A stretch of DNA of 10,500 nt, from assembly GCA_022826345.1 (NCBI GenBank), contig JAJDVB010000027.1, positions 1 to 10,500 of the forward strand, in the 5' to 3' direction. This document shows positions 516 through 9,922 of the stretch, one piece after another (within the stretch, counting starts at the first letter, position 1; the number at the start of each line of letters is the position of its first letter). The notes under the pieces were generated by a model, which did no database searches, had not been told where the DNA came from, and saw only the letters and a list, made by a program, of their open reading frames with translations. The stretch is from Alphaproteobacteria bacterium. GTDB lineage: Bacteria; Pseudomonadota; Alphaproteobacteria; UBA828. A program made the position numbers and the translations under genes.

Positions 516-744
516 GGGTCTCCCTTCCCGCCGGTGGCCTGCGGGTCATAGACCGGCCATGCTGCGATGTACAGCGCGGCCGCGCGAAATCGGCTGCCAG
601 CGCGGGTTAGCGATTGCGAGCGCCGGGGCAGGCGCCTAAGCTTGGCGCAGCGGCGGGCGCCGCCCGAAGCGGCGCGACGAAGGGATTCCTGCGGCATGGG
701 CCTACAGACCGCAATGGCGCATGCCAGAGGCGGAGGCTGAAACG
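516..744. promoter_or_regulatory. Divergent intergenic region between GST and amidohydrolase genes
   Basis: These 229 bases separate two genes transcribed away from each other, so promoters for both must lie here or overlap the gene starts. I see no convincing -35/-10 pair. The most regular element is a dyad at 632-648 (GCGCC-T-AAG/CTT-GGCGC, eight paired bases per arm with one unpaired T), which could be an operator but could also be chance in GC-rich DNA. A GGAGG ribosome site at 732-736 stands 8 bases before the ATG at 745 and decides the amidohydrolase start. Confidence 0.35.
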
Positions 745-2043
745 ATGGCAGAGACGCTCTTCACGAATGTCAGGATTTTCGACGGCAACGCCAAGCGCCC
801 CTATGCGGGCGAGGTGAAGCTGCAAGGCAACCTCATCAAGAAGGTCGCCAAGGGCAAGGGCAGGATCAGGGCCAACGGCGCCACCGTGGTGGACGGTGCC
901 GGCGCCACCCTGATGCCGGGGTTGATCGAGCCCCACTCCCACGTCTGTTACATCGATTCGACGACACTTCCGGAGATCGGGGCGCTCCCGCCAGAGGAGC
1001 ACATGGTGCTCGCGCTCGACAATGCGCGAACGATGATCGATCACGGCTTTACGAGCCTCTTCTCGGCTGCCGGTGTCGGCTACAACAAGATTCGAATCGA
1101 GCCGGTGCTGCGCGACGTGATCAATGCCGGGCGTTATCCGGGTCCGCGCATCAAGGCGGCGTCGCCCGAGATCGTGTCGTCAGGCGGGCTCGGCGACGAG
1201 CGCAAGTGGCACATGCACCAGGAGTCGGTGGGCTTCATCGCCGACGGGCCGGACGAGGTGCGCAAGGCCTGCAGGCTCTGCGTGCGCGAGGGCGTGGACA
1301 ACCTGAAGATCAACATCTCGGGCGACGAATTCTGCCAGCCGGGGCAGTCCGAAAAGATCACCTACTTCGATGCCGAGGTCGCCGCGGCGGCCGAAGTGGC
1401 GCGCGAAGCCGGTGTCAACATCATCACCCACGCCAGGGCGGACAAGGCGGTGCGGCTCGCGCTCAAGCACGGCATCAACATCATTTACCACGCCGACTAC
1501 TCGTCGAATAAGACCCTCGACATGCTGGAAGCCAAGAAGAAGGACATCTTCATGGCCCCGGCCTTCGGCATCGTCTACACGTTTGCGCACGAGGCCGGCG
1601 AGTGGGGCATCACCCGCGAGGTCGCCGAGAGCTACAACATGTTCTACAAGATGGAGAACACGATCCGCACCTATCAGGAAGTGCGGAAGCGCGGCATCCG
1701 GGCCATGCCGGGGGGTGACTACGGCTTCGCCTGGAACCCCATCGGCGCCAACGCCCGCGACATGGAGCATTTCGTCAACCACTTCGGCTACTCGCCGGCC
1801 GAGGCGCTGATCGGCGCCACGAAGTGGGGCGGCGAGCTCATGGGGCTCAACGTCGGCATGGTCAAGGAAGGCTACCTCGCCGACCTGCTGCTGGTGGACG
1901 GCGACCCGACCAAGGACGTCTCCATCATGCAGGACGCCGACAACCTGCTCATGATCATGAAGGACGGCGCCTATCACCGCGCGCCGAACGAGATCGCGCT
2001 GGCCAAGCGCCGCCGGGCCGTCACGCCCGCGGCCGCCGAATAG
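745..2043 (+). CDS. Metal-dependent amidohydrolase, imidazolonepropionase/prolidase-like (COG1228 type)
   Basis: A 432-residue cytoplasmic enzyme of the amidohydrolase superfamily. A small beta-sandwich part (about residues 1-57 plus the C-terminal GYLADLLLVDGDP segment) flanks a TIM barrel. The binuclear metal site can be read directly: His64-x-His66 after the LMPGLIEPHSH strand, Lys188 (NLKINISG, probably the carboxylated bridging lysine), His229 (IITHARA), His249 (IIYHADY) and Asp325 (MPGGDYGF). That His/His/Lys/His/His/Asp set is typical of the Xaa-Pro dipeptidase and imidazolonepropionase-like branch, which hydrolyses amide bonds in dipeptides, N-acyl amino acids or cyclic amides. The substrate cannot be assigned. 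The start at 745 is preferred to the in-frame ATG at 721 because GGAGG lies 8 bases upstream and the conserved strand (LFTNVRIFDG) follows at once. A hairpin terminator follows, so the gene may be transcribed alone, although it faces the same way as the genes downstream. Confidence 0.9.
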   Translation: MAETLFTNVRIFDGNAKRPYAGEVKLQGNLIKKVAKGKGRIRANGATVVDGAGATLMPGLIEPHSHVCYIDSTTLPEIGALPPEEHMVLALDNARTMIDHGFTSLFSAAGVGYNKIRIEPVLRDVINAGRYPGPRIKAASPEIVSSGGLGDERKWHMHQESVGFIADGPDEVRKACRLCVREGVDNLKINISGDEFCQPGQSEKITYFDAEVAAAAEVAREAGVNIITHARADKAVRLALKHGINIIYHADYSSNKTLDMLEAKKKDIFMAPAFGIVYTFAHEAGEWGITREVAESYNMFYKMENTIRTYQEVRKRGIRAMPGGDYGFAWNPIGANARDMEHFVNHFGYSPAEALIGATKWGGELMGLNVGMVKEGYLADLLLVDGDPTKDVSIMQDADNLLMIMKDGAYHRAPNEIALAKRRRAVTPAAAE

Positions 2044-2066: not shown

Positions 2067-2106
2067 CGGGGCTCTCCCTGCCGCTGGCGGGAGAGCCCCG
2101 TTTCCT
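2067..2106 (+). terminator. Rho-independent-type terminator after the amidohydrolase gene
   Basis: A perfect 12-base inverted repeat (2067-2078 CGGGGCTCTCCC with 2089-2100 GGGAGAGCCCCG) continues inward, past a bulged T, as GCC/GGC around a three-base loop. It is followed by TTTCCTCT. The stem is very strong and sits 23 bases after the stop codon. The U-tract is short and interrupted, so termination may be partial, leaving some read-through into the dioxygenase gene 40 bases further on. Confidence 0.7.
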
Positions 2107-2146: not shown

Positions 2147-2929
2147 TTGAAGCTCAACGAAGCGCAGCTTGAGGTCTTCCTCCGGGACGGCCTGCTGATC
2201 CTCCCCGGCCTCTTCTCCGCGGCCGAGGTGGCGGCGATCCGCGCAGCCCTGCCGCCGCTCTTCGACGAGGAGAGCGAGGCCAACATCGGCGAGAAGACGG
2301 GCACCGCAGCCCGCACCATCATGGGGCTCCACCAGCGGAGCGACCTCATCGACCGCCTGGTGCGTCACCCGCGCCTGGTCGAGCCGGCGCGGCAGATCGC
2401 GGGCCCCGATCTCTACATCCAGCAGGTCAAGGTCAACGTGAAGGCGGCCTTCGAGGGCGATGTCTGGCAGTGGCACTACGACTTTGCCACCCATCACCGC
2501 GACGACGGCGTGCCGGCACCGCAGGCGCTCAACCTGCACATCCTGCTGGACGAGGTGAGCCACTACAACGGGCCGCTCTATTTCATTCCCGGCTCCCACC
2601 GGCACGAGCCGCTGCCCACCTTCCACGACGTGACGAGCACGAGCTATCCGCTCTGGGTGGTGGATCGCGAGACCGTCACGAACCTCATCGCCGTGGGCGG
2701 CATCACGCCCGCGCTCGGCCCGCCCGGCACGGTCCTCATCTTCGGCGACCTGATGGTCCACGGCTCGCCCGGCAACCTGTCGCCGTGGGACCGCGCAATC
2801 TTCTCGCTCATTCTCAACCCGGTCGCCAACGCCCAGACCGCGTTCGCCCGGCCGGAATACAAGCACCACACCGATTTCTCGCCGGTGGTGCCGCTTGCCG
2901 ACGACTGCCTGCTCGCCCCGGCGGCATGA
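2147..2929 (+). CDS. Phytanoyl-CoA dioxygenase (PhyH) family Fe(II)/2-oxoglutarate oxygenase
   Basis: A 260-residue cupin-fold oxygenase. The iron facial triad is visible: His110 and Asp112 in WQWHYDF, and His205 in DLMVHGSPGN. Arg216 (SPWDRAIFSL), 11 residues after the distal His, is in place to bind 2-oxoglutarate. The N-terminal part (AQLEVFLRDGLLILPGLFSAAEV) is the helix and strand typical of PhyH and ectoine-hydroxylase relatives, and the C-terminal FARPEY...HTDFSPVVPL segment also fits small bacterial members. Such enzymes hydroxylate an unactivated carbon, using O2 and releasing succinate and CO2. The substrate is unknown. The start is TTG with GAGG at 2135-2138, eight bases upstream; an in-frame stop at 2123-2125 and the absence of ATG or GTG in between leave little choice. 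The stop is 7 bases before the SHMT-like ATG, so the two are probably translated together and act on one substrate. Sure of family, unsure of substrate. Confidence 0.88.
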   Translation: MKLNEAQLEVFLRDGLLILPGLFSAAEVAAIRAALPPLFDEESEANIGEKTGTAARTIMGLHQRSDLIDRLVRHPRLVEPARQIAGPDLYIQQVKVNVKAAFEGDVWQWHYDFATHHRDDGVPAPQALNLHILLDEVSHYNGPLYFIPGSHRHEPLPTFHDVTSTSYPLWVVDRETVTNLIAVGGITPALGPPGTVLIFGDLMVHGSPGNLSPWDRAIFSLILNPVANAQTAFARPEYKHHTDFSPVVPLADDCLLAPAA

Positions 2930-2936
2930 CCGGCCC

Positions 2937-4253
2937 ATGACCCGATCGCCGGCGCGCGAGCCGGGTTACTTTCTCGATCACCTGCAAACAGTCGACCCGG
3001 AGGTCCACGCGGCGCTCGCGGGCGAGCTTGCCCGCCAACAGGACGGGATCGAGCTGATCGCGTCGGAGAACCTGGTCAGCCGCGCGAGTCTCGACGCGTT
3101 GGGCTCGGTCATCGTCAACAAGACCGTCGAAGGCCGGCCGGGCGCCCGCTACTACGGCGGCGCCGAATTCGCCGACACGGTCGAGTCCCTCGCCATCGAG
3201 CGGGCCAAGCAGCTCTTCGGCTGCGCCTTCGCCAACGTCCAGCCCCATTCCGGCAGCCAGGCCAACCAGGCGGTCTTTCTCGCGCTGCTCCAGCCGGGCG
3301 ACACGGTGCTGAGCATGGCGCTGGATGCCGGCGGCCACCTGAGCCACGGCGCGGCGGTGAACCTGACCGGCAAGTGGTTCAATCCGGTCCGCTACCGCAC
3401 CGATGCCTCTGGCTTTATCGACATGGGCGAGGTCGAGCGGCTGGCTCAGGAGCACCGGCCCAGGCTCATCATCTGCGGCGGCTCGGCCTATCCGCGCGCG
3501 ATCGACTTCGCCGCCTTCCGTGCCATCGCCGATTCGGTCGGCGCCATCCTGCTCGCCGACATGGCGCACTTCGCGGGCCTCGTGGCCGGCGGCGCGCACC
3601 CGAGCCCCCTGCCCCACGCCCACGTCACCACGGCAACCACCTACAAGAACCTGCGCGGCGCACGCGGCGGCCTCATCCTCACCGACGATCCCGCGCTCGC
3701 GCGTAAGCTGGACAGCGCGATCTTCCCCGGCGTGCAGGGCAGCGTAATTCTCAACGCGGTCGCGGCCAAGGCGGTCTGCCTGGGCGAAGCGCTGAAGCCC
3801 GAATTCAAGGACTACGCAGCCCAGGTGCTGGCCAACGCGCGAAGCCTCGCCGATACGCTCATGGCGCGCGGCATCGCCATCGTCGCGGGGGGCACCGACA
3901 CGCCCCTGCTGGTTGCCGACCTGCGCCCGCTCGGACTGACTGGGGCCGCGGCCTCTGATAGCCTCGAAGCCGCCGGTCTCACCTGCAACAAGAATGCGGT
4001 GCCGGGCGACACGCAGCCGCCCAGGGTGACCTCGGGACTGCGTTTCGGCTCGGCGGCCGGCACCACGCGGGGCTTCGGCGAAGAAGAGTTCCACCGCATC
4101 GGCGTCTGGATCGCCGACGTGCTGCGCGCGATGGCGGCGGCGGGCGAACGCGACGACGCAATCGAGCAAGCCGTCCGTGCCGAGGTGCGCGCGCTCTGCC
4201 GCGCCTTCCCCATCTACCCCGGTCTAGGCACGGAGCCCCCGGACGGGCGGTAG
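2937..4253 (+). CDS. Serine hydroxymethyltransferase family PLP enzyme (divergent; possibly 2-methylserine type)
   Basis: A 438-residue fold-type I PLP enzyme, clearly homologous to GlyA along its whole length. It keeps Tyr73 and Glu77 (YYGGAE), the phosphate loop SGSQAN (105-110), His134 stacking on PLP (GGHLSHG), Asp208 and His211 (ADMAHFAG), the Schiff-base Lys237, Arg243 and the carboxylate-binding Arg369 (TSGLRFG). It departs from textbook GlyA at places normally near-invariant: the His before the lysine is Tyr236 (TTYKNLRGARGG instead of THKTLxGPRGG), the FPGxQGGPLMH loop reads FPGVQGSVILN, and PFVTSGxR is PRVTSGLR. It therefore probably moves or removes a one-carbon hydroxymethyl unit with tetrahydrofolate, but perhaps on a bulkier substrate such as 2-methylserine. 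Start 2937 is chosen because the GlyA-like N-terminus begins there and the upstream extension would overlap the dioxygenase gene. No clear ribosome site is visible, which fits translational coupling across the 7-base gap. Confidence 0.88.
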   Translation: MTRSPAREPGYFLDHLQTVDPEVHAALAGELARQQDGIELIASENLVSRASLDALGSVIVNKTVEGRPGARYYGGAEFADTVESLAIERAKQLFGCAFANVQPHSGSQANQAVFLALLQPGDTVLSMALDAGGHLSHGAAVNLTGKWFNPVRYRTDASGFIDMGEVERLAQEHRPRLIICGGSAYPRAIDFAAFRAIADSVGAILLADMAHFAGLVAGGAHPSPLPHAHVTTATTYKNLRGARGGLILTDDPALARKLDSAIFPGVQGSVILNAVAAKAVCLGEALKPEFKDYAAQVLANARSLADTLMARGIAIVAGGTDTPLLVADLRPLGLTGAAASDSLEAAGLTCNKNAVPGDTQPPRVTSGLRFGSAAGTTRGFGEEEFHRIGVWIADVLRAMAAAGERDDAIEQAVRAEVRALCRAFPIYPGLGTEPPDGR

Positions 4254-4434: not shown

Positions 4435-5358
4435 TTGACGGCCTCGCTCATCGTCGAGCAGCTCCTGAACGGCCTTCAGTTCGGCTTCATGCTGTTTCTG
4501 ATGGCCGCAGGGCTGACGCTCATCTTCGGCGTCATGGGCCTCATCAACCTCGCCCACGGCTCGTTCTACATGATCGGCGCCTTCGCCTGCGCCGCCGTGG
4601 CTGCCGCGACCGGCTCCTACTGGGTAGGCCTCGCAGCGAGCCTCGCCGCGGCCGCTGCCGCAGGCGCCCTCGTCGAGGTCGCCGTCATTCGCCGGCTCTA
4701 CCGTCGCGACCATCTCGATCAGGTGCTCGCGACCTTCGCGCTGATCCTGGTCTTCTCCGAGGGCACCCGCTGGGTGTTCGGCTCCTTTCCGCTCTATCTC
4801 ACGGTGCCCGACTTTCTGTCGGGGCCGGTGGCGCTCCCCGGTGGCATCGACTACCCCCTCTTCCGCTTCGCGATCATCCTGATCGGGCTCGTGATCGCGG
4901 GCGGGCTCTTCCTCCTGATCGCGCGGACGCGCCTCGGCATCCGCATCCGGGCCGGCGAATCCGACCGGGAGATGATCGCCGCCCTCGGCGTCGACATCCG
5001 CAAGCTCTACACCACCGTGTTCGCGATCGGCGCGGCGCTGGCCGGCCTCGCAGGGGCGCTGGTGGGCACGATCCAGTCGGTGCAGGTGGGCATGGGCGAG
5101 CCAGTGCTGATCCTCGCCTTCGTCGTCATCATCATCGGCGGGCTGGGCTCCATCGTCGGCGCGCTGGTGAGCGCAATCCTGGTGGGCCTCGCCGACACGC
5201 TCGGGCGCTTCCTGCTGCCGGTCGCGTTCGACACCTTCATGGATTCGTCCGCCGCCAACAACGTCGGCTCGGCATTGGCCTCCATGCTGATCTACATCCT
5301 GATGGCGCTGGTGCTGTTCCTGCGCCCGACCGGCCTGTTCGGCACCAGGGCGCACTGA
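4435..5358 (+). CDS. livH: Branched-chain amino acid-type ABC transporter permease LivH
   Basis: A 307-residue inner-membrane permease, made almost wholly of hydrophobic helices (about eight). It begins with the hallmark LivH segment LLNGLQFGFMLFLMAAGLTLIFG, then GVMGLINLAHGSFYMIGAF. A conserved cytoplasmic coupling loop, RAGESDREMIAALGVDIRKLYT, lies near residues 171-194, followed by GAALAGLAGALVG and a C-terminal FLRPTGLFG. With LivM it forms the translocation path of a binding-protein-dependent importer; family members carry branched-chain amino acids, but also amides, urea or other amino acids, so the substrate is open. The start is TTG with GAGG 7 bases upstream; the next residues (MTASLIVEQLLNG) match the family's usual beginning and no ATG fits better. 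The stop overlaps the livM ATG by one base (TGATG). Confidence 0.93.
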   Translation: MTASLIVEQLLNGLQFGFMLFLMAAGLTLIFGVMGLINLAHGSFYMIGAFACAAVAAATGSYWVGLAASLAAAAAAGALVEVAVIRRLYRRDHLDQVLATFALILVFSEGTRWVFGSFPLYLTVPDFLSGPVALPGGIDYPLFRFAIILIGLVIAGGLFLLIARTRLGIRIRAGESDREMIAALGVDIRKLYTTVFAIGAALAGLAGALVGTIQSVQVGMGEPVLILAFVVIIIGGLGSIVGALVSAILVGLADTLGRFLLPVAFDTFMDSSAANNVGSALASMLIYILMALVLFLRPTGLFGTRAH

Positions 5359-6341
5359 TGCTGACCAGAGAGGCGGCCATCAGCCTCCTGATCGCGGCGG
5401 GCCTGCTCGCCGCGCCGCTGCTCGGCAACGCCTTCGACGAGCCGTTCGTCATCACGCTTGCGACCAAGGTGGCGATCCTCGGGCTTGCCGGCACCGGGCT
5501 CAATATCGCGCTGGGCTACGGCGGGATGGTCTCGCTCGGGCACGCGGCGTTCTTCGGCTTAGGCGGCTACGCGGCCGGCATCCTCGCGAGCCACGCGCTC
5601 AACTACGAGCCGCTCTTCACCGCGCCGCTGCTGGTCGAAGGCACGACGCAGATGCTGATCATCTGGCCAGTCGCCATCGTCGTTAGCGGCATCGCGGCGC
5701 TGGTGATCGGCGCGCTCTCCCTGCGCACCACCGGCGTCTTCTTCATCATGATCACGCTGGCCTTCGCCCAGATGGTCTATTACTTCGCGATCTCGTGGCC
5801 GGCCTATGGCGGTGAGGACGGGCTCTCGATCTACATCAGGAACGAGTTTCCGGGGCTCAACACGCTCAACCCGCTCCACTTCTTCGCCATCTGCTACGTG
5901 CTGCTGATCCTTGCGATCGGCTTCTCCTTCCTGCTCTCGCAGTCGCGCTTCGGTCTCGCGCTCAACGGCGCGCGGCAGAACGCGCAGCGGCTCGCCACTG
6001 TCGGCATCAGCCCCTTCCGCGTGAAGCTCACCGCCTTCGTGATCTCGGGCATGATGGCGGGGCTCGCCGGCGCGCTCTACGCCGACCTCAATCGCTTCGT
6101 CAGCCCCTCGATGCTGTCGTGGCACACCTCGGGCGAGATCATGGTGTTCGTGATCCTGGGCGGCACGAGACGGCTGTTCGGCCCCGCCGCCGGCGCTGCG
6201 CTCTACATCGTGCTGGAGAACACGCTGGGCGACGTCAGCGAGCACTGGCTGCTCCTGCTGGGCGCGCTGCTGGTGGCCCTGGTGCTGTTCGCCCGCGGCG
6301 GCGTGATCGGCATTCTCGCAGGCCAACCCCGCCATGCCTGA
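5358..6341 (+). CDS. livM: Branched-chain amino acid-type ABC transporter permease LivM
   Basis: A 327-residue membrane protein, the partner of LivH. It has a hydrophobic N-terminal helix, then the family signature TGLNIALGYGGMVSLGHAAFFGLGGYAA (about residues 41-68), several more helices including SLRTTGVFFIMITLAFAQMVYY, and the cytoplasmic loop GLALNGARQNAQRLATVGISPFRVKLTAF near residues 203-230, which docks with the ATPases. The helix GMMAGLAGALYADLNRFVSP and the loop VFVILGGTRRLFGP follow as in LivM. Length is ordinary for the family. The ATG shares one base with the livH stop and the gene runs 8 bases into livG, so the four genes are surely one transcript. Substrate specificity would normally be set mainly by a periplasmic binding protein, which this window lacks. 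Confidence 0.93.
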   Translation: MLTREAAISLLIAAGLLAAPLLGNAFDEPFVITLATKVAILGLAGTGLNIALGYGGMVSLGHAAFFGLGGYAAGILASHALNYEPLFTAPLLVEGTTQMLIIWPVAIVVSGIAALVIGALSLRTTGVFFIMITLAFAQMVYYFAISWPAYGGEDGLSIYIRNEFPGLNTLNPLHFFAICYVLLILAIGFSFLLSQSRFGLALNGARQNAQRLATVGISPFRVKLTAFVISGMMAGLAGALYADLNRFVSPSMLSWHTSGEIMVFVILGGTRRLFGPAAGAALYIVLENTLGDVSEHWLLLLGALLVALVLFARGGVIGILAGQPRHA

Positions 6342-7098
6342 GCCGATCCTTCAGACCGAGAAACTGTCGAAGCGCTTCGGCGCGGTGGTCGCGAGCGACG
6401 CGGTGACGCTCGACCTTGTGCCCGGCGAGATTCATGCGCTGATCGGGCCGAACGGCGCCGGCAAGTCCACCGTCATCAAGCAGATCGCGGGCGAAATCCG
6501 CCAGGACAGCGGCTCCATCCGCTTCGTCGGCCGCGATATCGACCGCCTGGACATGGTGGCCCGCGCTCAGCTCGGGCTGGCCCGGACTTTCCAGGTGTCC
6601 TCCGTCGCACCGGAGTTCTCGGGGCTGCAGAACGTCATGCTGGCGGTCCAATCGGTGGAGCGAAAAACCTTCCGCTTCATCAAGCCGGCGCTCAAGGACA
6701 AGCCACTGATGACGCAGGCGATGGCACACCTCGAACGTCTCCTGCTGGACGACAGAGCCGACGTTCGCGCAGGCGATATGTCGCACGGCGAACGGCGGGC
6801 GCTGGAGATCGCCATCGCGCTCGCGCTCAAGCCCAAGGCGTTTCTGCTCGACGAGCCCATGGCGGGGATGGGGCCGGAGAACACGGCGAAGCTGATCGAA
6901 ATTCTCGACGACCTGCGGGCGGAGGCCCCGATCCTGCTGGTCGAGCACGACATGGATGCGGTCTTCGCCCTTGCGGACCGCATCTCCGTCATCGTCTACG
7001 GCCGGATCATCGCGAGCGGCACGCCGGAAGAGATCCGCGCCAACGAGGAGGTGCGCGGCGCCTACCTCGGGGACGAGGGGCATGACGGCGCTGCTTGA
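6334..7098 (+). CDS. livG: Branched-chain amino acid-type ABC transporter ATP-binding protein LivG
   Basis: A 254-residue ABC ATPase on the cytoplasmic face of the importer. Motifs in order: Walker A GPNGAGKST (38-46), Q-loop Gln87 in LARTFQVSS, a signature reading MSHGERRALEIA from residue 149 (in place of the commoner LSYGxQR), Walker B AFLLDEP (169-175), the GMGPEN D-loop, and switch His205 in LLVEHDMD. The C-terminal YGRIIASGTPEEIRANEEVRGAYLG is the usual LivG ending; the following DEGHDGAA tail is a few residues longer than minimal. The ATG overlaps livM by 8 bases. With LivF it forms the nucleotide-binding pair that powers import. Confidence 0.94.
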   Translation: MPEPILQTEKLSKRFGAVVASDAVTLDLVPGEIHALIGPNGAGKSTVIKQIAGEIRQDSGSIRFVGRDIDRLDMVARAQLGLARTFQVSSVAPEFSGLQNVMLAVQSVERKTFRFIKPALKDKPLMTQAMAHLERLLLDDRADVRAGDMSHGERRALEIAIALALKPKAFLLDEPMAGMGPENTAKLIEILDDLRAEAPILLVEHDMDAVFALADRISVIVYGRIIASGTPEEIRANEEVRGAYLGDEGHDGAA

Positions 7099-7771
7099 GG
7101 TCGCAGGCGTCACCGCCTTCTACGGCACCTCGCAGGCGCTCTTCGGCGTCGACCTCGCCGTCGGCGAGGGCGAGGTGGTGGCGCTCATGGGGCGCAACGG
7201 CATGGGCAAGACCACCACCATCAGGACGATCTGCCGCATGATGCCGCATCGCGAAGGCAGCATCGCCTTCGCCGGCCGCGACCTCGCGCGCCTGCCCTCG
7301 CACCGGGCGGCCTGGCTCGGCCTCGGGCTGGTGCCGGAAGGCCGGCGCTGCTTCCCGACACTGACGGTGCGCGAGAACCTGACCGCCGCCGCCCGCCCCG
7401 GCCACTGGAACGAGGAGCGGGTGATCGCGCTCTTCCCTCAGCTGGCGGAGCGCCGCAATCAGAAAGCCAACACGCTCTCCGGTGGCGAACAGCAGATGCT
7501 CGCCATCGGCCGGGCGCTGATGACCAATCCCCGGCTGCTCATCCTGGACGAGGCGACGGAGGGGCTGGGGCCGCTCATCCGTCGGGAAATCTGGTCGGTG
7601 ATCGCGACGCTGAAGGAGGCCGGCCTCTCCATCCTCGTGGTCGACAAGTCGCTGAAGGAACTTACGGCCGTCGCCGAGCACTGCGTCATCCTGGAGAAAG
7701 GCGCGACCTGCTGGTCCGGCGCAAGCGCCGACCTCACTCCGGCACTGACGGACCGATACCTGGGGGTTTGA
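7082..7771 (+). CDS. livF: Branched-chain amino acid-type ABC transporter ATP-binding protein LivF
   Basis: A 229-residue ABC ATPase. Walker A is GRNGMGKTT (37-45), the Q-loop region reads LVPEGRRCFPTLTVREN (83-99, with Glu in the LivF-style VPEGR), the signature is LSGGEQQML (132-140) and Walker B is LLILDEATEGLGP (152-164). The switch region reads ILVVDKSLKEL near residues 184-194, where most LivF proteins have LLVEQN, so the usual Glu-Gln-Asn is Asp-Lys-Ser. Neither version has a switch His, so LivG probably supplies the standard one. The start is the ATG at 7082 behind a GAGGGG purine run (7075-7080), unusually close to the start; the frame opens further upstream but only inside livG, where it encodes nothing LivF-like. 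It overlaps livG by 17 bases and ends the transporter operon, 12 bases from the stop of a gene on the other strand. Confidence 0.92.
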   Translation: MTALLEVAGVTAFYGTSQALFGVDLAVGEGEVVALMGRNGMGKTTTIRTICRMMPHREGSIAFAGRDLARLPSHRAAWLGLGLVPEGRRCFPTLTVRENLTAAARPGHWNEERVIALFPQLAERRNQKANTLSGGEQQMLAIGRALMTNPRLLILDEATEGLGPLIRREIWSVIATLKEAGLSILVVDKSLKELTAVAEHCVILEKGATCWSGASADLTPALTDRYLGV

Positions 7772-7783
7772 GGCCGCCGCCCT

Positions 7784-8614
7784 TCAGAAGCTGATCGCCT
7801 TGAACGCTTTGGTCTGCGCGGTCATGGCGACCTCGGTGGGCAGGCGCTCCATGCTGCTCGCCCCGTAGAAGCCGTGCACGTGCTCGGCGTGCTGCAGCAC
7901 GAACGTCGCGTCCTCGGGCGAGGCGATGGGCCCGCCGTGGCAGAGCACGATCACGTCCTCGCGCACGGCCTTGGCCGCAAGCGCCCACGCGTCGATCAGC
8001 GTCACGCACTCTTCCAGCGACTTGGCGGTCTGCGCGCCGATGGTGCCGCTGGTGGTGAGCCCCATGTGGCAGACGATGATGTCGGCGCCGGCTTCTGTCA
8101 TGGCAACCGCGTCGTCCTTCGAGAAGACGTAGGGCGTGGTGAGCAGGTCTGCCTCGTGCGCCGACCGGATCATGTCGACCTCCAGGCCGTAGCCCATGCC
8201 GGTCTCTTCCAGGTTGGCGCGGAAGACGCCGTCGATGAGGCCGACGGTCGGGAAGTTCTGAACGCCCGAGAAACCTAAAGCCTTCAACTCGTCCAGGAAG
8301 CGGTCGAGCACCATGAAGGGGTCGGTGCCGTTGACGCCGGCGAGCACCGGCGTCTGCCGCACCACCGGAATCACCTCGTGCGCCATCTCCTTCACGATTT
8401 CGTTGGCGTTGCCGTAGGCCAGCAGGCCCGCGAGCGAACCCCGCCCCGCCATGCGGTAGCGGCCGGAGTTGTAGATCACGATGAGGTCGATGCCGCCGGC
8501 CTCCTCGCACTTGGCCGAGAGCCCGGTGCCCGCGCCACCGCCGATGATCGGCTCGCGGCGGGTGACCATGCCGTGAAACGTCTCCAGTAGCGTTCGGCGG
8601 TCCATGCCCGGCAT
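7784..8614 (-). CDS. Phosphoenolpyruvate hydrolase-like TIM-barrel protein (Tm-1 C-terminal domain family)
   Basis: A 276-residue soluble protein of the PEP-hydrolase/TIM-barrel signal transduction family (PF09370 type), related to the PEP mutase superfamily and to the C-terminal half of plant Tm-1. Visible conserved stretches are the glycine-rich [13 protein letters not shown] (23-35), [18 protein letters not shown] (43-60), [11 protein letters not shown] (119-129), [18 protein letters not shown] (177-194), [14 protein letters not shown] (223-236) and [14 protein letters not shown] (248-261). The start at 8614 is chosen because AGGGAGG lies 6 bases upstream; the ATG at 8605 is spaced too far. 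It lies 19 bases downstream of the UPF0261 gene and is clearly cotranscribed with it. PEP hydrolysis is only a family label: the real reaction is not known to me, and nothing here proves it. Confidence 0.88.
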
Positions 8615-8633
8615 CGGCGGCCTCCCTAGGGGG

Positions 8634-9833
8634 TCAGGCGGCGATCCCGTTCCAGCTCTCGACGAGAGCCTGGGCGAAATCGGCGTCGTTGATGTGGAGC
8701 GGCAAGCGGATCAGGCGCCTCGCGTCGGTTTGCTCTACCGTCCGCTCCAGCGCCTCGAAGAGGGCCGCGTCGGCGTCGGGGTCGTGGAAGGGCATCCCTG
8801 GCGCGTCGATCAGCGAGACCCCCTGCTCCGGGATCAGGAATCGCACCGGCCCCTCGCAGGCGTTGAGCTTGGCACCGATCCACTCGCCCATCCGTGCATT
8901 CTCGTCCGCCGTCGTGCGCATGAGCGTCACGTTGGGATTGTGGATGTGGAAGGTGCGGCCTTCGTACTGCGCCGGCACGGTCTCGCGCGCGCCGAAGTTT
9001 ACCATGTCGAGCGCCCCGCAGGAGCCCACGTAGGGCAGGCCCGTCCGCGCGAAGGCGCCGAGCCGGTCCCCGCCCGCGCTGAAGACGCCGCCCATCAGGT
9101 GATCGCAGACCTCGGTCGTGGTGCTGTCGATACAGCCCAGCACCAGGCCTGAATCGACCAGCTTCTCCATCGAGCGTCCGCCGGTCCCGGTCGCGTGGAA
9201 GACCAGGCAGTCGTGGCGCGCCTCCAGCGCGGCGCGGACCTGATCCACGCAGGGCGTGGTGACACCGAACATGGTCAGGCCGATGGCGGGCTTGTCCTCG
9301 GCCGCCGGCGCCTCGCCCCGCATCATGCCGGCGAGCGCGTGCGCCGCGTTGGCGAGCACCACCCGCGAAATCCGGTTGAGCCCGGCGATGTCCACCACCG
9401 AGTACATCATGGTGATGTCGTTGGGACCGACGTAGGGCGCGACGTTGCCCGAGGCGACGGTGGAGACCAGCACCCTCGGCACCCCGATGGGGAGCGCCTG
9501 CATGCCGATGGAGACCAGCGCGGTGTTGCCGGACCCTCCGGCCCCGATCACCCCGCCGATGTCGTCCCGCGTGGGCAGGAAGCGCGCCAGCGCCTCGCCC
9601 ATGGCGGCGACCGCCTGGCCGCGGTCGTCGAGGCTGAGCACCGCGTCGGCGCCGTCGGGATGATGGGCGGCGACCTCGGCGGCGCCCACGTCCACGCCGG
9701 CGGGCCGGTCTCCGCTCCCGGTGCCGACATCCACGACGCAGGCCCGCACGCCGTCCGCCGCAAGCAGGTCGCGCACATAGAGCAGCTCATCGCCCTTGGT
9801 GTCGAGGGTGCCGACGATATAGGCCCGCGTCAT
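8634..9833 (-). CDS. Tm-1-like ATP-binding domain protein (UPF0261 family)
   Basis: A 399-residue soluble protein of the UPF0261 family, matching the N-terminal half of tomato Tm-1, a viral replication inhibitor that binds ATP. Conserved segments are [13 protein letters not shown] (5-17) at the very start, [14 protein letters not shown] (95-108), [14 protein letters not shown] (123-136), [17 protein letters not shown] (139-155), [12 protein letters not shown] (188-199), [15 protein letters not shown] (211-225) and [17 protein letters not shown] (233-249). Two Rossmann-like halves are expected, with the glycine-rich segments near 97-104 and 216-219 likely nucleotide-contacting. The ATG at 9833 is preferred to an in-frame start at 9878 because a GGGAGCGAGAGG purine run precedes it directly and the family's conserved first strand follows. 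It is first of a two-gene minus-strand operon with the TIM-barrel gene. Its biochemical role in bacteria is unknown to me; the pairing suggests one complex or pathway. Confidence 0.9.
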
Positions 9834-9922
9834 CCTCTCGCTCCCAAACTCGTCCTGCACGATTGCACGCTTCCTCACGCTCGTCGCAGTCGATCTAACT
9901 CAGTTTCCGGGAGATCACCTCT
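9834..9922 (-). promoter_or_regulatory. Presumed promoter region of the UPF0261/TIM-barrel operon
   Basis: These 89 bases lie between the UPF0261 start and the stop of the next minus-strand frame. The promoter of the two-gene operon should be here or reach into the AT-rich patch. Base composition shifts from GC-rich to AT-rich around 9890-9925. I see no clear -35/-10 pair or operator; the only firm element is the purine-rich ribosome site next to the ATG. Confidence 0.3.

Follow-up and report, generated by a model that had tools for sequence, protein, structure and literature searches.

We analysed a 10,500-nucleotide stretch at the start of contig JAJDVB010000027.1 from an alphaproteobacterium of the UBA828 lineage (hereafter the window), in which a gene for a PhyH-type Fe(II)/2-oxoglutarate oxygenase is closely followed by one for a divergent serine hydroxymethyltransferase (SHMT). 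From their sequences, we estimate a probability of about 0.6 that the two enzymes act one after the other to break down an alpha,alpha-dialkyl amino acid. This reading draws on the tight spacing of the genes, the recurrence of the pair, the common clade and largely shared active-site signature of the SHMT and 2-methylserine hydroxymethyltransferase (mSHMT), and the kinship of the oxygenase with amino-acid hydroxylases. 2-Aminoisobutyrate (AIB) would be the most likely natural substrate, a narrower claim that we hold less firmly. A first-pass annotation of the same DNA had put forward this two-step pathway; the pairing, the SHMT-mSHMT clade and the oxygenase family are supported by the results below, and its substrate is still conjecture.

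Because AIB and isovaline lack an alpha-hydrogen, their degradation cannot begin with ordinary transamination. In the proposed first step, the oxygenase would hold the free amino acid by means of Arg235 and, using Fe(II), O2 and 2-oxoglutarate, hydroxylate a methyl group on the alpha-carbon to give alpha-methylserine (or an alpha-alkylserine). The SHMT would then pass the new hydroxymethyl group to tetrahydrofolate (THF), yielding methylene-THF and alanine, the latter as D-alanine if the window SHMT behaves like known enzymes. A broader proposal falls somewhat short of an even chance: that the pair represents a previously undescribed, widespread Fe(II)/2-oxoglutarate-initiated degradation of AIB and related alpha-methyl amino acids, with one oxygenase lineage and at least three SHMT-family partners in Alphaproteobacteria, Gammaproteobacteria and Actinomycetota. 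The three kinds of partner would be Tyr228-type relatives of mSHMT, mSHMT-type enzymes, and relatives that lack the folate residues, in one case accompanied by an alanine racemase. In the part of the literature examined, the one oxygenase route for AIB depends on a dinuclear-metal enzyme of an unusual kind. A second solution, if true, would be a one-component 2-oxoglutarate enzyme working with an mSHMT relative. Such a route would also assign a function to a large set of PhyH proteins that are still uncharacterised, and would provide a simple biocatalyst with which to produce alpha-methylserine. Neither a PhyH-SHMT pair nor a 2-oxoglutarate-dependent AIB enzyme was found in literature titles and abstracts, a weak negative as most subscription journals fall outside their coverage.

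Spacing and recurrence of the gene pair

Both reading frames are intact and lie on the same strand (Table 1). The TTG start of the oxygenase gene at 2147 is credible because 27 of 28 aligned homologues begin at that column. Two earlier remarks, that a mere seven bases part the genes and that the second lacks an obvious ribosome site, were confirmed; inspection by eye of the 20 bases 5' of the SHMT ATG revealed no Shine-Dalgarno-like stretch. This arrangement suggests that the two genes are probably translationally coupled.

Genome contigs were scanned with 29 aligned PhyH proteins, and the best 80 of at least 566 confirmed matches were taken as loci, in which genes were called by a simple purpose-written script. 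A window-type SHMT gene adjoins the PhyH gene in 10 of these best 80 loci, all from other genomes, indicating that the adjacency is conserved and not due to chance. It lies 3' of PhyH in nine (L001-L005, L013, L015, L016 and L023) and 5' in L028. By title, L013 belongs to a gammaproteobacterium and the other nine to Alphaproteobacteria or their orders. Seven of 60 relatives of the L003 genome have a PhyH of at least 87% identity, and in each of the seven an SHMT motif lies about 0.7 kb away on the same contig. When the ten downstream pairs, the window included, were examined for spacing, the genes were found either to overlap or to be 7 bases apart, never more. The 7-base spacer occurs in three pairs (the window, L001 and L002), an in-frame 4-base stop/start overlap in five (L003, L004, L013, L016 and L023), and a longer overlap in two (L005 and L015). 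This result indicates that tight spacing, and probably translational coupling too, is conserved. We conclude that the pair probably works as one pathway.

Active sites and relatives of the two enzymes

The solved structures closest to the window PhyH are those of GriE, a leucine 5-hydroxylase, and the trans-proline hydroxylase H11, with 34-37% identity over the aligned part. An HXD...H iron triad is present, with His110, Asp112 and His205 as predicted Fe ligands, and Arg216 is the predicted 2-oxoglutarate arginine. Arg235 aligns with GriE Arg242, which pairs with the substrate carboxylate, and is predicted to do likewise here. His110, Asp112, Arg216 and Arg235 are kept in all 44 aligned rows on the window's side of the family, and His205 in 43, the remaining row having an undetermined letter; position 235 is also Arg in 36 of 36 other rows. 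The oxygenase therefore belongs with amino-acid hydroxylases, one of them acting on a methyl group, in support of the role first suggested for it. The substrates of GriE and H11 differ from the one proposed for the window PhyH, and some sources name PhyH proteins of this group ectoine hydroxylase.

The SHMT had been called divergent, and this description fits: it is 45-64% identical to the canonical SHMTs compared and has an altered active-site signature. Its identity to the SHMTs of ten other pairs is 54-91%. Its signature residues are Thr63, Ser136, Tyr236, Lys237, Ser269 and Cys281, with the folate residues Glu65 and Asn353 retained. In E. coli numbering, used hereafter, five residues set it apart from canonical SHMTs (Y55T, T128S, H228Y, G263S and A275C). 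These were compared in an alignment of 57 rows, consisting of a pair clade of 27 (11 PhyH-paired proteins and 16 database relatives), 6 mSHMTs and 24 canonical enzymes (11 further SHMTs of the same genomes, 4 serine-cycle and 5 sarcosine-oxidase-linked enzymes, Sphingomonas and E. coli GlyA, and 2 unannotated proteins). Positions 55, 128, 228, 263 and 275 are occupied by Tyr, Thr, His, Gly and Ala in all 24 canonical enzymes. In the pair clade they hold Thr (27), Ser (27), Tyr (26; Phe in 1), Ser (26; Thr in 1) and Cys (25; Gly in 2), and in the mSHMT group Thr (5; Ser in 1), Ser (6), Thr (6), Ser (6) and Cys (5; Ser in 1). Four of the five changes (55, 128, 263 and 275) are thus common to the window SHMT and mSHMT, whose signature (Thr55, Ser128, Thr228, Ser263, Cys275) was derived within this analysis and not from a published definition. 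The folate residues Glu57 and Asn347 are retained in all 57 proteins. If residues 55, 57, 228, 263 and 347 have the same roles as in the E. coli enzyme, loss of the Tyr55 side chain and of the His beside the pyridoxal 5'-phosphate (PLP) lysine would be in keeping with a need for space to fit a second group on the alpha-carbon. In a separate locus, a Tyr-motif SHMT (L194:4847-5974, minus strand) has Ala replacing the folate glutamate, as called.

In trees, the window SHMT stands apart from housekeeping GlyA and falls in one clade with 2-methylserine hydroxymethyltransferases. Support for the pair clade and for its joint clade with mSHMT was 97/91 and 100/98 in a 57-row tree, and 95/91 and 100/99 in a 63-row tree. 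Removing the five signature columns left the joint clade at 99.7. The window SHMT forms its own branch inside this clade, making it kin to mSHMT and not a plain member. Identity as a housekeeping GlyA was rejected on account of its Thr, Tyr and Ser in place of Tyr55, His228 and Gly263, its separate position in the tree, and the presence of at least one further SHMT in all ten other genomes with the pair.

We reached the mSHMT group through the TRIS-degradation plasmid of Pseudomonas hunanensis. Relatives were found on Ensifer, Shinella, Paracoccus, Ruegeria and Mesorhizobium plasmids, three of the five adjoining folD, purU or a D-serine ammonia-lyase gene. A search with the Ensifer protein returned several UniRef entries with names beginning "2-methylserine hydroxymethyl...", and all eight that were aligned carry the signature of the TRIS enzyme. 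The window SHMT is 59% identical to this TRIS enzyme and shares one clade, the changes at 55, 128, 263 and 275 and the folate residues with mSHMT (EC 2.1.2.7; Ensifer, Paracoccus and Aminobacter enzymes and that of TRIS cluster II). It differs in having Tyr at 228 and Asn (Ser in some relatives) at 230, where mSHMT has Thr at both, and in being paired with an oxygenase, whereas mSHMT accompanies folD/purU or a D-serine dehydratase. E. coli with the full TRIS cluster II is reported to degrade 2-hydroxymethylserine (PMC10848231).

Weighing the pathway and its substrate

Bacteria can also use AIB through 2,2-dialkylglycine decarboxylase, which produces acetone by decarboxylating transamination without an oxygenase. 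The AIB catabolism of Rhodococcus wratislaviensis (AibH1H2, AibD1/E and AibC) resembles the proposed pathway in combining hydroxylation of a methyl group of an alpha-methyl amino acid with an SHMT homologue downstream (PMC7782822). Its oxygenase, however, belongs to PF04909, has a dinuclear metal centre and works with ferredoxin partners. The first-pass annotation was right about the dinuclear oxygenase of the known route but not about a methylserine hydroxymethyltransferase; the later steps use dehydrogenases and AibC, which decarboxylates aminomethylmalonate and showed no hydroxymethyltransferase activity (PMC7782822). Neither a PF04909 oxygenase nor a ferredoxin of the Rhodococcus-type pathway was found among the ten window genes scanned. 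The amidohydrolase upstream of the pair was considered as an AibH-like oxygenase and rejected, as it matches PF01979/PF07969 and the AibH1H2 type is PF04909.

Co-occurrence was examined in an evenly sampled set of 385 alphaproteobacterial genomes, with the PhyH type defined by at least 55% identity. The PhyH type was present in 15, the Tyr motif in 9 and the Thr motif in 5. PhyH type and signature SHMTs co-occur (7 of 15 versus 6 of 370 genomes, p=4e-8), and they also do so in a reduced test (3 of 11 versus 6 of 370, p=0.0014); many of the genomes are small, and neither p value is corrected for size. A Thr-motif match in G306 held no SHMT and was dropped (p=8e-8 with G306 kept). The reduced test excludes the scan loci G003, G010 and G233 as well as G298, a close relative of G003, and keeps G375, which is scan locus L006. 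Phe228 variants, of which L015 is one, escape the motif patterns used. The two genes stand side by side in 4 of the 15 genomes (G003, G298, G010 and G017). The most telling of these is G017: 54 bases beyond its PhyH gene (58%) comes an mSHMT-type gene, with a carbon-nitrogen hydrolase gene after it. In the 24 window-side PhyH genomes without an adjacent SHMT, an unlinked window-type signature SHMT is present in two (G412 and G233), the mSHMT type in three (G409, G416 and G428) and a divergent relative in two (G425 and G420).

Several observations weigh against the proposed pathway. No special SHMT was found anywhere in 17 of those 24 genomes, some of which must be incomplete, as three of the 17 have no SHMT at all. 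One PhyH subclade (L006, L007, L009, L010, L014 and L017) is never paired with an SHMT. PhyH proteins of this type may thus work with other partners. Signature SHMTs were also seen in six genomes that lack the PhyH type (G011, G081, G237, G379, G266 and G319). Two signature SHMTs, one Thr and one Tyr type, adjoin choline-sulfatase-like genes (L237:611-3496 and L242:8303-11374), and another (L239) is divergent from an MTTB methyltransferase gene, settings that AIB breakdown does not explain. Alanine racemase matched in only two fetched loci. Neither it nor folD or purU was detected among the scanned window genes, unlike several mSHMT loci in the case of folD/purU. In most of its nearest relatives the pair is not accompanied by liv genes: none were seen in the flanks covered for the close relatives L001, L003 and L004, and the transporter was rejected as part of a conserved unit with the pair. 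Neither the liv genes nor the amidohydrolase gives a firm clue to the substrate. The Tyr at 228, against Thr in mSHMT, means that substrate preference may differ. In an 80-row tree, the joint clade had a support of 100, and the pair clade and mSHMT parts had 71 and 85, making this inner split less sure. When six whole active-site stretches were removed, a quick free search placed mSHMT among canonical enzymes; in a wider set with the same removal, the joint-clade tree had a log-likelihood 11.8 above that of the free-search tree, and one clade was not rejected (p-AU 0.776). Kinship with mSHMT is thus the better reading of these alignments than convergence. Some of the shared active-site residues may still have arisen by convergence, and that origin would argue just as well for a similar substrate.

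An unlikely variant keeps both steps and changes the substrate to a larger or different alpha-quaternary amino acid, such as isovaline, some other alpha-methyl amino acid or a compound with an alpha-hydroxymethyl group, with 2-aminobutyrate, serine or another product. The SHMT signature would suit any alpha-substituted serine, and two reports describe an alpha-methylserine aldolase that also makes alpha-ethylserine (PMC7918591) and link the TRIS enzyme to 2-hydroxymethylserine (PMC10848231). By contrast, genes near PhyH in three loci point to alanine. The actinomycetotal L050 has a divergent SHMT, PhyH and alanine racemase in that order; in Sphingomonas L037, an amino-acid permease and an alanine racemase start 1.3 and 3 kb beyond a divergent SHMT; and in L039, the PhyH gene as called shares bases with a D-amino-acid-dehydrogenase-like gene, and the genome has an unlinked mSHMT-type gene. 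Alanine as the product makes AIB the most economical substrate.

Divergent relatives of the SHMT adjoin PhyH in nine loci of the window's PhyH clade. Six of these nine and two unlinked relatives were checked by residue, and the folate glutamate was absent in all six adjacent ones; three match the fluorothreonine transaldolase model, far below cut-off. These findings would suit a different and improbable chemistry, in which PhyH places a hydroxyl on the beta-carbon of an ordinary amino acid and the product undergoes folate-free retro-aldol cleavage by the SHMT, yielding glycine and an aldehyde. Carnitine biosynthesis, with its trimethyllysine hydroxylase and aldolase, is a model for such a sequence, and canonical SHMTs are able to act as aldolases. 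The window SHMT, however, retains Glu57 and Asn347 and has the Tyr55 to Thr change of mSHMT. Its folate residues also set it apart from the Variovorax alpha-methylserine aldolase, which is reported to make or split alpha-methylserine and alpha-ethylserine without THF (PMC7918591); the relatives without folate residues beside PhyH are possible alpha-methylserine aldolases. Very unlikely, in our judgement, is a role for the SHMT as a supplementary enzyme of serine/glycine one-carbon metabolism, placed beside PhyH for operon convenience and not for one pathway. Related signature SHMTs do occur beside the choline-sulfatase-like genes or divergent from the MTTB gene, and sarcosine-oxidase or serine-cycle clusters make use of other SHMT paralogues. 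All nine sarcosine-oxidase and serine-cycle SHMTs examined, however, have canonical motifs, and SHMT-family genes of three kinds are found next to PhyH genes of this clade, a pattern for which convenience is a poor explanation.

Surrounding genes and other observations

Table 1. Annotated features of the window
Feature	Positions	Strand	Remarks
Amidohydrolase	721..2043	+	PF01979/PF07969, prolidase/carboxypeptidase-like; putative role only
Hairpin between amidohydrolase and PhyH	2067..2100	+	GC-rich, near-perfect; fold -38 kcal/mol, z -4.7 (2055-2112)
PhyH-type Fe(II)/2-oxoglutarate oxygenase	2147..2929	+	TTG start, TGA stop, 260 aa; PF05721, 104 bits
Spacer PhyH-SHMT	2930..2936	+	7 bases, CCGGCCC
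SHMT-family PLP enzyme, mSHMT-like signature	2937..4253	+	ATG start, TAG stop, 438 aa; PF00464, 468 bits (scanned from longer frame, TTG 2895)
LivH, LivM, LivG, LivF-type ABC transporter genes	4435..7771	+	LivF from ATG 7082
PEP-hydrolase-like (PF09370) and UPF0261 (Tm-1-like) genes, adjoining	7784-9878	-

The hairpin upstream of PhyH is a possible terminator. It has no T-run (GTTTCC comes next), and a terminator scan made no call there. With this strong hairpin in between, the PhyH and SHMT genes may not share a transcript with the amidohydrolase gene. An amidohydrolase 90-97% identical to that of the window lies 5' of the pair in L001-L004. On the 3' side, luciferase-like and PALP cluster genes are found in L001, L002 and L004 (annotated in L002) and a MatE gene in L003. 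No binding-protein gene for the liv transporter was found among the ten window genes scanned. Elsewhere, a LivK-H-M-G-F set is divergent from PhyH in L018, liv-like genes lie upstream in L002, and livF/livG-like genes lie about 8 kb off in L005.

LysR-type regulator genes, as in many inducible catabolic operons, occur near PhyH or SHMT in seven loci, identified by family search in L019, L020 and L050 and by gene-cluster membership in L016, L023, L024 and L037. A different conserved pair was observed in the sister clade, where PhyH is followed by a DRL-type oxidoreductase in 23 of the 80 loci (L040, L041, L043, L047, L052, L053, L055-L063, L065, L067, L070, L071 and L076-L079; PF21135 in the two annotated). 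The PhyH tree, from which L041 was excluded, carries this label on 18 rows, with L047 assigned by hand; the count of 23, L047 included, comes from a later search. In Pelagibacteraceae (L036, L038 and L032), PhyH comes after xanthine-dehydrogenase-like genes; it overlaps the next gene by 4 bases in L036 (XdhC-like) and L038, and an arginase-family gene is overlapped in L032. The gammaproteobacterial L014 has two PhyH genes of the family within about 5 kb (5613-6632 and 9668-10807).

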